From the NCBI RefSeq assembly GCF_030684675.1, contig NZ_JAUXXZ010000058.1:1-64000 (forward strand): a stretch of 64,000 bases of DNA, given 5' to 3'. Origin of the DNA: Daejeonella sp. Lineage in GTDB: Bacteria; Bacteroidota; Bacteroidia; Sphingobacteriales; Sphingobacteriaceae. Position numbers and translations under genes: made by a program. Position 1 is the stretch's first letter; each line of letters opens with the position of its first letter. Under the pieces are notes generated by a model, which worked only from the letters and a program-made list of their open reading frames with translations, was not told where the DNA came from and made no database searches. Shown here in pieces: positions 47,795-50,947 of this stretch.

Positions 47795-48172
47795 TTATTT
47801 CAGGATGGCAGTACTTTCTTTTTTAAGCTGCACCTTATCCATGATGACATTACCTATATAGGTAGCTCCTGTTTCAACCTGCAACGAATTTGTATGAAGT
47901 TCGCCAAGAATATTACCTGAACTTTTTATGTCAATAGAATCTGCGGTAACACTTCCGTTAACGGTACCAAAAACTACAATTTCCCTGGCTTTAATATTTC
48001 CCTCAATTATTCCGTTCTCGCCAATGATTAATCCCTCGCCAATAATCAGGTCGCCTTTTATATGCCCATCAATTCTCACAAAAACATCCGACTCTATCCT
48101 GCCATGGACCACACAACCCTTACTGATTAGTGTCGGGGCAGGATTGCTTTGTCCGTTTTTAGAGCCAGCCAT
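47795..48172 (-). CDS. Bactofilin (polymer-forming cytoskeletal protein)
   Basis: This 125-residue protein is almost entirely the bactofilin beta-helix: KGCVVHGRIESDVFVRIDGHIKGDLIIGEGLIIGENGIIEGNIKA..., with short repeats about one helical turn long, and an Asn/Gly-rich N-terminal tail (AGSKNGQSNPAP). Bactofilins polymerise without nucleotide and position peptidoglycan enzymes. It starts 4 bp after the stop of the M23 peptidase gene, matching the bactofilin/M23 pairing known from other bacteria (for example Helicobacter CcmA with Csd1). Confidence 0.92.
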   Translation of the reverse strand: MAGSKNGQSNPAPTLISKGCVVHGRIESDVFVRIDGHIKGDLIIGEGLIIGENGIIEGNIKAREIVVFGTVNGSVTADSIDIKSSGNILGELHTNSLQVETGATYIGNVIMDKVQLKKESTAILK

Positions 48173-48176
48173 TTGT

Positions 48177-49025
48177 TTAATTTATACTTAGGAAGCTCTT
48201 CGGATTGACAGGTTTGCCATTCTTCCTGACTTCATAATGGAGGTGATTTCCGGTAGAATATCCGGTTGATCCAACCTGCCCTACAATTTGACCTGTATTT
48301 ACCGTTTGCCCTACTTTAACATTGATCTTTGACAAATGGCCATAAAGAGTTTCAAGATTGTTTTTATGCCTGATTTTTACACATTTGCCATATCCCTGAA
48401 ACCAGCCTGCAACCACAACTTTCCCGTCTGCCGTACTCTTTACTGCATCACCCCTTCGTCCTTTAAAATCTATACCGGGATGAAACTCAACCCTTCCCCG
48501 CCTGATTGGATCACCACGGTAACCAAAGGTTGAATTTATTACATAATTTGCAGGATATCCAATTGGGGTAAAGGCAACACCGAGGAGAAAATCTTCAAGT
48601 CGCTCATCATATAATGCATAAGTTTCTTCTGTACTAAGTTCCGTCGTCGTCTCATTATTACCACCAATTTCGTCTACTTTAAATCCCTTTATTCCTCTTT
48701 TAATGAGGTATTGATTGATTTTTTTCAGCTTGTTTTCGATATTCTGTATGTAATTCCGGGCTTGGGTGCTATCTGTTGGTGGCGGAATCTGTTTTTTTAG
48801 ATGTGCGATTTCTCTGTTGTAGGCAATTCTTTCCTTTTCAATCTTGCTAAGTTCAAGTGAAAGGAAAATTATTGTACAGGTCAGAATAAAGATTGTTATC
48901 CCAATGGTAAGGGCGTAATGTTTTAAGCGGTTGAGGTGTTTTGTTTTGACACGCAGAGATTTTGTTTCGCCCTTGTTAGAGCCTACGATCAAAACAGTAC
49001 TGAAATCTGATTTCGAAAATATCAT
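48177..49025 (-). CDS. Membrane-anchored M23 (LytM) peptidase
   Basis: This 282-residue protein has a cytoplasmic head, one membrane helix (YALTIGITIFILTCTIIFLSLEL, about residues 37-59), a coiled-coil segment with KIEKERIAYNREIAHLKKQ, and a C-terminal LytM domain. Active-site motifs HPGIDFKGRRGD (HxxxD) and GNHLHYEVR (HxH) are intact, so it should cut peptidoglycan cross-links. It sits upstream of, and nearly touches, the bactofilin gene. It is divergent from the actin-like/bactofilin pair, and the shared 273-bp gap is likely a common control region. Confidence 0.93.
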   Translation of the reverse strand: MIFSKSDFSTVLIVGSNKGETKSLRVKTKHLNRLKHYALTIGITIFILTCTIIFLSLELSKIEKERIAYNREIAHLKKQIPPPTDSTQARNYIQNIENKLKKINQYLIKRGIKGFKVDEIGGNNETTTELSTEETYALYDERLEDFLLGVAFTPIGYPANYVINSTFGYRGDPIRRGRVEFHPGIDFKGRRGDAVKSTADGKVVVAGWFQGYGKCVKIRHKNNLETLYGHLSKINVKVGQTVNTGQIVGQVGSTGYSTGNHLHYEVRKNGKPVNPKSFLSIN

Positions 49026-49298: not shown

Positions 49299-50315
49299 AT
49301 GTTTGCAATTCAGTCGTTTTCCAGCTTAATAGAAAATAGTAACGCCAACCTTAGTAATACCTCAAAGGACTTATTGAACGGGCTGAAGATCTTCCATGAA
49401 AATCAGTGGTATATCTGTGGTAACTTAGCTATGAGTGAGGGGCAATTGCCACATAAATTCATTAATTCAGCTCCAACAGATCTTGATTATCAGCTACTTG
49501 TTAAAGCAGCATTGCTCCTGGTATCTGATTCGGCTGAGCAGCCATTAACAATAACAACTGGTTTTCCGTATTCTACTTACAGGATATACAAGGATATGGC
49601 AACTGAGTTTCTAAGGAAGACTCATATCATTGAGTTTGATGCATCTACTTACAGTAACAGTGGTAAGAGATCTGTTATTTTGGACGTTCAGAATGTTGAA
49701 GTAATACCTGAGATTGTAGGCTGTACCATTGCATTGAGAAAAGGGGAACATCAGGCTGAAGGGAATTTCTTTGTGTTAAGTTGTGGATTCGGAACATTTG
49801 AATCTGTTCTAAGTATGGAATCAGGAATTGTTGAGCAGACTATGGTCAGTACTCATGGACTGAAATATGCCGTAAACATGATGATGAGTGAGCTTGAGAA
49901 GAGCCATTATCTTGGTTTCAGAAATGCACACCTGATGGATGAAGCATTCCAGAAGGGTTATATAATTCTGAACAGAAAGAATGTTGATCTGAGAGAGATC
50001 AGAAGAAATGTTCTAAGATCATATTATAATGAAGTTATCTCTCCAAATCTGAGAAATGTAATCACGGATGCGAACCTCATGAAATCTAACAAGGTATATC
50101 TTTGCGGTGGCGCCATGTTGTATCAGGATCTGGTTGAGTGCTTTAAAAATGAATTTGGGGAAATCGCTCAACTTGAGTTTGTAACTGATCCTGCCAGTCT
50201 GGCAAGTAAGGGTTACACACTTAATTCACTTCGTGTTTCGGGAGGTAAAAAGCAATCTTCAGTTGGATTAGATATTGGTAATGCAACAACTGTTGTAACT
50301 ACATTGACGGAATGA
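49299..50315 (+). CDS. Circularly permuted ParM/actin-like ATPase (proposed)
   Basis: This 338-residue protein reads as a ParM-type actin homologue whose first strands have moved to the C-terminus. N-terminal WYICGNLAMSEGQLPHKF (about 37-54) matches the segment that normally follows phosphate-1. The phosphate-2 equivalent is VLSCGFGTFESVLSMESG (Ser161 replaces the usual Asp). The adenosine motif is VYLCGGAMLYQDL (G270-G271). DPASLASKGYTL matches the usual ParM C-terminus. After a linker (SGGKKQS) comes VGLDIGNATTVVTTLTE (D325), a textbook phosphate-1 hairpin, ending the protein. The in-frame sequence upstream of the start, open to a TGA near 49197, contains no phosphate-1 motif. Its stop overlaps the start of the next bactofilin gene (ATGA). 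Confidence 0.72.
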   Translation: MFAIQSFSSLIENSNANLSNTSKDLLNGLKIFHENQWYICGNLAMSEGQLPHKFINSAPTDLDYQLLVKAALLLVSDSAEQPLTITTGFPYSTYRIYKDMATEFLRKTHIIEFDASTYSNSGKRSVILDVQNVEVIPEIVGCTIALRKGEHQAEGNFFVLSCGFGTFESVLSMESGIVEQTMVSTHGLKYAVNMMMSELEKSHYLGFRNAHLMDEAFQKGYIILNRKNVDLREIRRNVLRSYYNEVISPNLRNVITDANLMKSNKVYLCGGAMLYQDLVECFKNEFGEIAQLEFVTDPASLASKGYTLNSLRVSGGKKQSSVGLDIGNATTVVTTLTE

Positions 50316-50947
50316 TCGGCAGGGCTGTAAATTTTATTAAGAAATATCTCGATAAAAAGAACCGCCAAAAGGAGATCGTTGCAGACTTTCACACTACAAT
50401 AATCAGGGTTGATGATAATTTTATTTCATCAAGTTCTATAATCCTTGATGAAAGGCTTATAGGAAACATTTATTCACTGAAAGAAGTCACCGTAGCCCCG
50501 ACTGCAGAAATATCAGGCAATATCACTTCCAGAACCTGTAATATTAATGGAAAAGTAATCGGAGACATTATTTCTACTGAGTCTGCGCTCATTAAAAGTT
50601 CGGCCATAATATGTGGTAATATCAGGGCTAAATCTATTAATGTAGAGCCCGGATGTATTATCAATGGAATGATCCGGATTGAAGGGAATATTGATGAGCG
50701 TGATCTTATTGAGAAGGTAGGGAACCGGCTACCTCCAAAAGTCCAGAAAGAGATTATTACTATGCCTTATCTGATTTCTGAGCCCCTTGAAGTTGAAAAG
50801 GAACCTGTAGCTAAACCGGTTAGTCAGCCTGACAGGCCATCCGAAATCAATAAGAGGGCTCCGGTTCCTGTAACGAAGACTAAGGCTGTTGTTCAAGCAA
50901 CAGAGCCCGAGGAGGCTCACAAGCCAAACACAAACAGCTGGTATTGA
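50312..50947 (+). CDS. Bactofilin with N-terminal helix and long C-terminal tail
   Basis: This 211-residue protein has a basic, amphipathic-looking start (MIGRAVNFIKKYLDKKNRQK) that could bind membrane or partner. A bactofilin helix domain at about residues 28-128 (SSIILDERLIGNIYSLKEVTV, AEISGNITSRTCNINGKVIGDI) follows, then a disordered Pro/Lys/Glu-rich tail of about 70 residues ending NTNSWY. It is longer than the 125-residue bactofilin at 47795. The start codon overlaps the stop of the actin-like gene, a strong sign of coupled translation and joint function. Confidence 0.87.
   Translation: MIGRAVNFIKKYLDKKNRQKEIVADFHTTIIRVDDNFISSSSIILDERLIGNIYSLKEVTVAPTAEISGNITSRTCNINGKVIGDIISTESALIKSSAIICGNIRAKSINVEPGCIINGMIRIEGNIDERDLIEKVGNRLPPKVQKEIITMPYLISEPLEVEKEPVAKPVSQPDRPSEINKRAPVPVTKTKAVVQATEPEEAHKPNTNSWY

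Follow-up and report, generated by a model that had tools for sequence, protein, structure and literature searches.

The window analysed is a stretch of 64,000 nucleotides of Daejeonella sp. DNA (RefSeq assembly GCF_030684675.1, contig NZ_JAUXXZ010000058.1, positions 1 to 64,000). It contains a gene for a homologue of ParM/Alp-type actins, designated cpActin, which is followed by a bactofilin gene on the same strand and preceded by genes for an M23 peptidase and a second bactofilin on the opposite strand. The features discussed below are the following.

47795–48172, minus strand: second, short bactofilin (125 aa, PF04519) without the aromatic tail, downstream of the M23 gene
48177–49025, minus strand: divergent M23 peptidase (282 aa, PF01551) with an N-terminal hydrophobic segment, similar to LmdC in position and layout
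49299–50315, plus strand: cpActin, circularly permuted ParM/Alp-type actin homologue of 338 aa, intact open reading frame of 338 codons
49299–49337, plus strand: new N-terminus (residues 1–13), a strand equivalent to canonical beta3 according to VIA alignments and to hhalign in the native order
49710–49712, plus strand: Glu138, the equivalent of catalytic ParM E148 by alignment, invariant in 55 of 55 proteins
49779–49802, plus strand: phosphate-2 equivalent S161-C-G-F-G-T-F-E168, with Ser161 at the position of ParM D170
50100–50117, plus strand: adenosine motif LCGGAM (residues 268–273), by alignment
50232–50258, plus strand: linker RVSGGKKQS between the old C-terminal helix and the old N-terminal strand, from the family alignment and models
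50250–50312, plus strand: relocated phosphate-1 hairpin beta1-beta2 (residues 318–338), with invariant G323-x-D325-x-G327-N328
50312–50947, plus strand: bactofilin (211 aa, PF04519), whose start overlaps the cpActin stop by 4 bp (ATGA)
50933–50944, plus strand: tip NSWY of the C-terminal aromatic tail of this partner bactofilin, from tail comparison

A protein 100% identical to cpActin is present in the MAG Sphingobacteriales 16-39-50, and the closest named records belong to Daejeonella. The gene is carried by a 75-kb contig and its relatives by contigs of up to 1.7 Mb; the cpActin gene is therefore chromosomal. Scans for promoters and terminators at the locus showed nothing remarkable. Searches with the cpActin sequence alone returned no significant match in Pfam, NCBIfam or the PDB; the relation to ParM/Alp proteins is visible only with the family. 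Along the chain, the motifs occur in the order YICGNLAMSEG (38–48), VIPEIVGC (135–142), FFVLSCGFGTFE (157–168), LCGGAM, DPASLASKGYTL, and VGLDIGNATTVV, the last of which spans residues 322–333 and ends five residues ahead of the stop. The ParM-like order with a C-terminal phosphate-1 motif, which an earlier note on this DNA had claimed, was thus confirmed on the complete open reading frame.

A search of whole genomes and of a genome-contig collection identified 59 loci beyond the window that match most of cpActin, and a sample of the phylum Bacteroidota revealed matches in 24 of 395 genomes. The loci are distributed among Daejeonella, Mucilaginibacter, Sphingobacterium, Parapedobacter, Olivibacter, Dysgonomonas, other Bacteroidales, and Balneolaceae, and cpActin belongs to a conserved family of Bacteroidota and Balneolota. 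We aligned 55 distinct full-length proteins, with identities to the window protein down to 35–40%. All 55 start at a beta3-like strand, (F/I/L)(P/S)S(V/L/I)xE (FPSVxE or SSLIEN), and all 55 end with the invariant G323-x-D325-x-G327-N328 followed by a strand, in place of the canonical order in which the phosphate-1 hairpin is N-terminal. The same order in every full-length relative bears out the argument of the earlier note that a wrong start is no explanation for the missing N-terminal motif. A phosphate-1 motif additionally present at the N-terminus of homologues, which would have spoken against a permutation, was found in none of the 55. The linker is variable among the relatives and reaches about 20 residues. 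Dysgonomonas mossii DSM 22836 harbors at least three cpActin-bactofilin loci, which are located on different contigs (L031, L032, and L034). In Dysgonomonas sp. Marseille-P4677, the cpActin gene (L033, 9980–11000) is split into two overlapping frames by a frameshift or a sequencing error. No permuted relative of cpActin was detected in the plasmids, phages, and viral contigs searched; the plasmid and phage matches were mostly annotated as ParM/StbA or partition proteins, and those that were translated open with the phosphate-1 motif.

The comparison of re-cut profiles proposed in the earlier note was performed as a rotation scan, in which the family alignment was cut at positions along the sequence, rotated, and compared by hhalign with nine canonical ParM/StbA proteins from plasmids and a phage. 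In the native order, cpActin residues 1–311 aligned to ParM 22–320 with a score of 148.6. The score was maximal for cuts at positions 318–320 (169.6–170.3), which also gave the best full-length alignment among the rotation points tried, spanning ParM 1/2–320. In a control run, the re-cut alignment scored 172.5, the native alignment 150.3, and the alignment deleted for the hairpin 150.5. In the same run, 150 shuffled hairpins gave a mean of 151.1 (sd 2.0, maximum 159.7), and other segments of 20 columns reached at most 158.9.

The Pfam profile ALP_N (PF17989), which was curated independently of this analysis, matched 28 of 34 cpActin members (best E-value 4.2e-14). Members in the native order matched from profile position 17 or 18 to 148, and re-cut members from 1 to 148. 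The score of the L031 protein increased from 44.3 to 54.3 bits (profile 18–148 to 1–148) and that of the L044 protein from 31.5 to 41.9 bits, and the L038 protein, undetected in the native order, was recovered above the cut-off with 32.9 bits. Homology to ParM/Alp profiles is apparent both from these matches and from the hhalign score of about 170. Searched against the PDB, the native-order family profile matched the Hsp70 SSB1 non-collinearly (query 312–338 to chain 3–29, 126–187 to 168–230, and 251–307 to 323–380). A re-cut profile of nine rows performed no better against the PDB than the native profile of 34 rows, a comparison that is not a test since the depths of the profiles differ. A rotation scan by hmmsearch, run against Hsp70s, MreB, and two R1-type ParMs, lacked the sensitivity needed for a decision.

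An AlphaFold2 model of cpActin was obtained with high confidence (pLDDT 92.5, pTM 0.91; pLDDT 91–98 across residues 291–338). Its top Foldseek match was pCBH ParM (E-value 4e-15), and Foldseek and VIA-align grouped the model with pCBH ParM, Dh-cParM1, Ta0583, and CorM. VIA Z scores of 20–27 to ParM, actin, Hsp70, and MreB assign the predicted structure to the actin fold (ASKHA superfamily); for Dh-cParM1, the Z score was 26.9 with an rmsd of 2.9 over 301 residues, model residues 1–316 being aligned to chain residues 23–360. Structure prediction and superposition, also proposed in the earlier note, yielded the pattern expected for a permutant. Model residue 1 paired with residues 19–24 or so of the shorter canonical chains and later in longer ones (49 in BiP and 60 in CorM), and the alignments stopped near model residues 313–318, leaving over the C-terminal hairpin 318–338. 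A divergent member, 38% identical to cpActin, showed the same alignment behavior. VIA reports collinear ranges, from which the position of the hairpin in the sheet is not readable; we infer from the high confidence of the model, its topology, and the conservation of the motif that the hairpin docks beside the N-terminal strand. We consider it nearly certain that cpActin is a natural circular permutant in which the phosphate-1 hairpin has been transferred from the beginning to the end of the chain.

In the alignment, residues D7, E148, and D170 of ParM correspond to D325, E138, and S161 of cpActin. D325 and E138 are invariant in the 55 proteins, and the GxDxGN, GxGTxE, and GG motifs are conserved in all or nearly all of them. 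The earlier note had reported the replacement of the phosphate-2 Asp by Ser in a single protein; the substitution is real, but it is a trait of the family and not a peculiarity of this protein, as position 161 is occupied by Ser in 51, Gly in three, and Asn in one of the 55 sequences and never by Asp. The D170A substitution in ParM abolishes filament dynamics, although static filaments are still formed (PMC5539076), which leads to the prediction that cpActin filaments would be slow or static.

The bactofilin and M23 context had not been considered in the earlier note and provides the best clue to the function of cpActin. The M23 peptidase and second bactofilin genes located upstream from cpActin form a bactofilin-M23 module, defined by adjacent PF04519 and PF01551 matches. 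In the DNA surrounding each of the 59 loci, a bactofilin gene was found near cpActin in 43 cases, often together with an M23 peptidase gene. The remaining 16 loci, in which the surrounding DNA contained no bactofilin gene, include second copies in Parapedobacter and their relatives, several Balneolaceae, and others; the partnership of cpActin with bactofilin is therefore not universal. Bactofilins were present in all 20 cpActin-bearing genomes tested (1–4 copies) and in 11 of 20 genomes lacking cpActin. In one lineage (L062–L064), the gene order is M23, cpActin, a conserved gene of about 377 codons (L062, 2539–3672; L063, 2538–3671; L064, 256–1383), and bactofilin. No ParR-type gene was recognized by eye among the neighbors of cpActin.

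Bactofilins encoded directly downstream from cpActin on the same strand end in an aromatic residue in 34 of 34 cases. A Trp residue is located within the last two positions in 32 of these 34 proteins versus one of 53 other bactofilins, and this exception is also encoded downstream from a cpActin, slightly further off. The tips are SWY, WW, LW, EW, or DW, and the preceding tail is otherwise variable. The tail-bearing arrangement is clustered in the tree of the 55 cpActins, requiring about four changes, and a Fisher p-value for these counts overstates the evidence since related loci are not independent. Two Daejeonella genomes (G001 and G002; loci L130 and L131) have lost cpActin from the same locus and kept the M23 gene and both bactofilin genes, and the SWY ending is missing from their orthologous bactofilin. 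In a further genome, G012, an in-frame actin remnant of 95 aa is followed by a bactofilin devoid of the tail tip. The remnant frames of two Daejeonella genomes (L012, 1501–1788, in G012, and L013, 1501–1788, in G008) are both still open; they combine about 33 N-terminal and 60 C-terminal residues, share an internal deletion, and display a decaying phosphate-1 motif. The Trp tail and its disappearance along with the actin are correlative observations that point to an actin-bactofilin interface.

Among known systems, cpActin resembles the ParM/StbA proteins (R1 ParM, pCBH ParM, and the chromosomal Dh-cParM1) in its fold, phosphate-1 motif, catalytic Glu, and adenosine motif, and tblastn matched it to a ParM/StbA protein from a Thermoanaerobacterium plasmid (E-value 7e-5). 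It differs from them by its permuted chain, by Ser, Gly, or Asn in phosphate-2, by its chromosomal location, and by having a bactofilin as partner instead of ParR. FcmB/CorM are chromosomal, ParM-derived actins of filamentous cyanobacteria that probably contribute to cell shape (PMC12645912; PDB 9rmi), and no link to bactofilins was noted in the portion of that article consulted. CorM, likewise chromosomal and derived from ParM, is among the top fold matches of cpActin (VIA Z score 24.6), but the alignment of the first residue of cpActin with CorM residue 60 is that expected for an unpermuted CorM chain. In the BacA-LmdC system of H. neptunium, a bactofilin and an M23 peptidase form an experimentally established cell-shape module (PMC10945521). 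The cpActin locus likewise has adjacent bactofilin and M23 genes, and its peptidase resembles LmdC in carrying a hydrophobic segment at the N-terminus, but the locus adds an actin and a second bactofilin gene, the one specifying the Trp-tipped tail. We found no report of an actin in bactofilin-M23 modules. MreB shares with cpActin the actin fold and, probably, a context of cell shape, but the families differ, and the genome also keeps an MreB-type gene of its own (an MreB-like open reading frame in L078, matched by the HSP70 profile).

The permutation and its conservation, the gene linkage, and the aromatic tail with its loss alongside the actin are read from sequences and predicted structures. 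The mechanism that we propose starts from a chain with beta3 at its beginning and the phosphate-1 hairpin at its end; most probably, the hairpin folds back onto the same molecule in cis and would complete the nucleotide site. cpActin would bind nucleotide, presumably ATP, and polymerize into filaments predicted to be slow or static because the phosphate-2 Asp is lost and the catalytic Glu kept. The bactofilin encoded together with cpActin would dock on it through the terminal Trp of its disordered tail; the corresponding role is played for ParM by the C-terminal peptide of ParR. The composite scaffold could then position M23-dependent remodeling of the cell wall. We moderately favor this combination of static filaments, tail docking, and M23 positioning by a permuted ParM/Alp-type actin. 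The likely role of cpActin is that of a static scaffold which docks to bactofilin and acts in cell-envelope morphogenesis, and the simplest reading of the comparisons is that cpActin adds an actin-based layer to the bactofilin-M23 cell-shape module. The more specific version, in which a static, phosphate-2-deficient actin is recruited or capped by the Trp tail and directs M23 activity in the Bacteroidota envelope jointly with the bactofilin, appears to us evenly poised between right and wrong.

The foremost alternative is a monomeric nucleotide switch of the FtsA or Hsp70 type, which would dock the bactofilin tail without polymerizing and regulate bactofilin assembly or the M23 peptidase. The loss of the phosphate-2 Asp, the weak profile similarity to Hsp70, and the membership of the partner bactofilin in a family that forms polymers of its own are all compatible with such a switch, which is nonetheless rather unlikely since cpActin is closest in fold to filament-forming ParMs and to ParM-like actins and since the ParM D170A protein still makes static filaments (PMC5539076). 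The proximity of bactofilin could also be incidental to a chromosomal, ParMRC-like DNA-partition actin, as the nearest relatives in sequence and fold are ParM/StbA proteins. This is improbable in view of the lack of a ParR-type gene recognizable by eye alongside, the direct linkage, in most loci, to a bactofilin gene whose product has a tail tip that is lost together with the actin, and the lack of permuted relatives in the plasmids, phages, and viral contigs searched.

Two further explanations concern the hairpin itself. The permutation frees it at a chain terminus, and some members have a long, disordered linker, so that the hairpin might be swapped between neighboring subunits and complete the nucleotide site of the next protomer in a strand-swapped filament. 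The linker is short in the cpActin of the window and in most relatives, however, and the model of the monomer is confident in cis across residues 291–338, making the swap highly improbable. The last explanation, an artefact in which a wrong start codon, a frameshift, or an assembly error masks an N-terminal phosphate-1 motif, was refuted by the homologues: the 55 proteins come from many genera and independent assemblies and are encoded by open frames of the expected length. Nothing was found in its favor, and its probability is negligible.

In agreement with the earlier note, to whose author no described permuted ParM or actin homologue was known, the open-access literature, to which the search was confined to the exclusion of subscription papers and most preprints, yielded no description of permuted actins or of permuted ASKHA proteins. 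Within the same scope, nothing was found on bactofilin with ParM or on a C-terminal tryptophan of bactofilins. CIRPIN (PMC12667903) was checked for its match to "parm" and set aside, as the word actin is absent from that article and "parm" is the name of an author in its references.

Actins are generally viewed as fixed in a single order of the chain. In cpActin, the chain ends have moved to between beta1-beta2 and beta3, which brings the two termini next to the nucleotide site, and the family therefore tests which features of the actin topology are needed for folding, hydrolysis, and filament polarity. The Trp-tipped tail offers a concrete hypothesis of peptide docking. The conserved link to bactofilin, together with a Trp tail that vanishes with the actin, suggests that two polymer families operate as one machine, and the operon of permuted actin and bactofilin may represent an undescribed two-filament cell-shape system.
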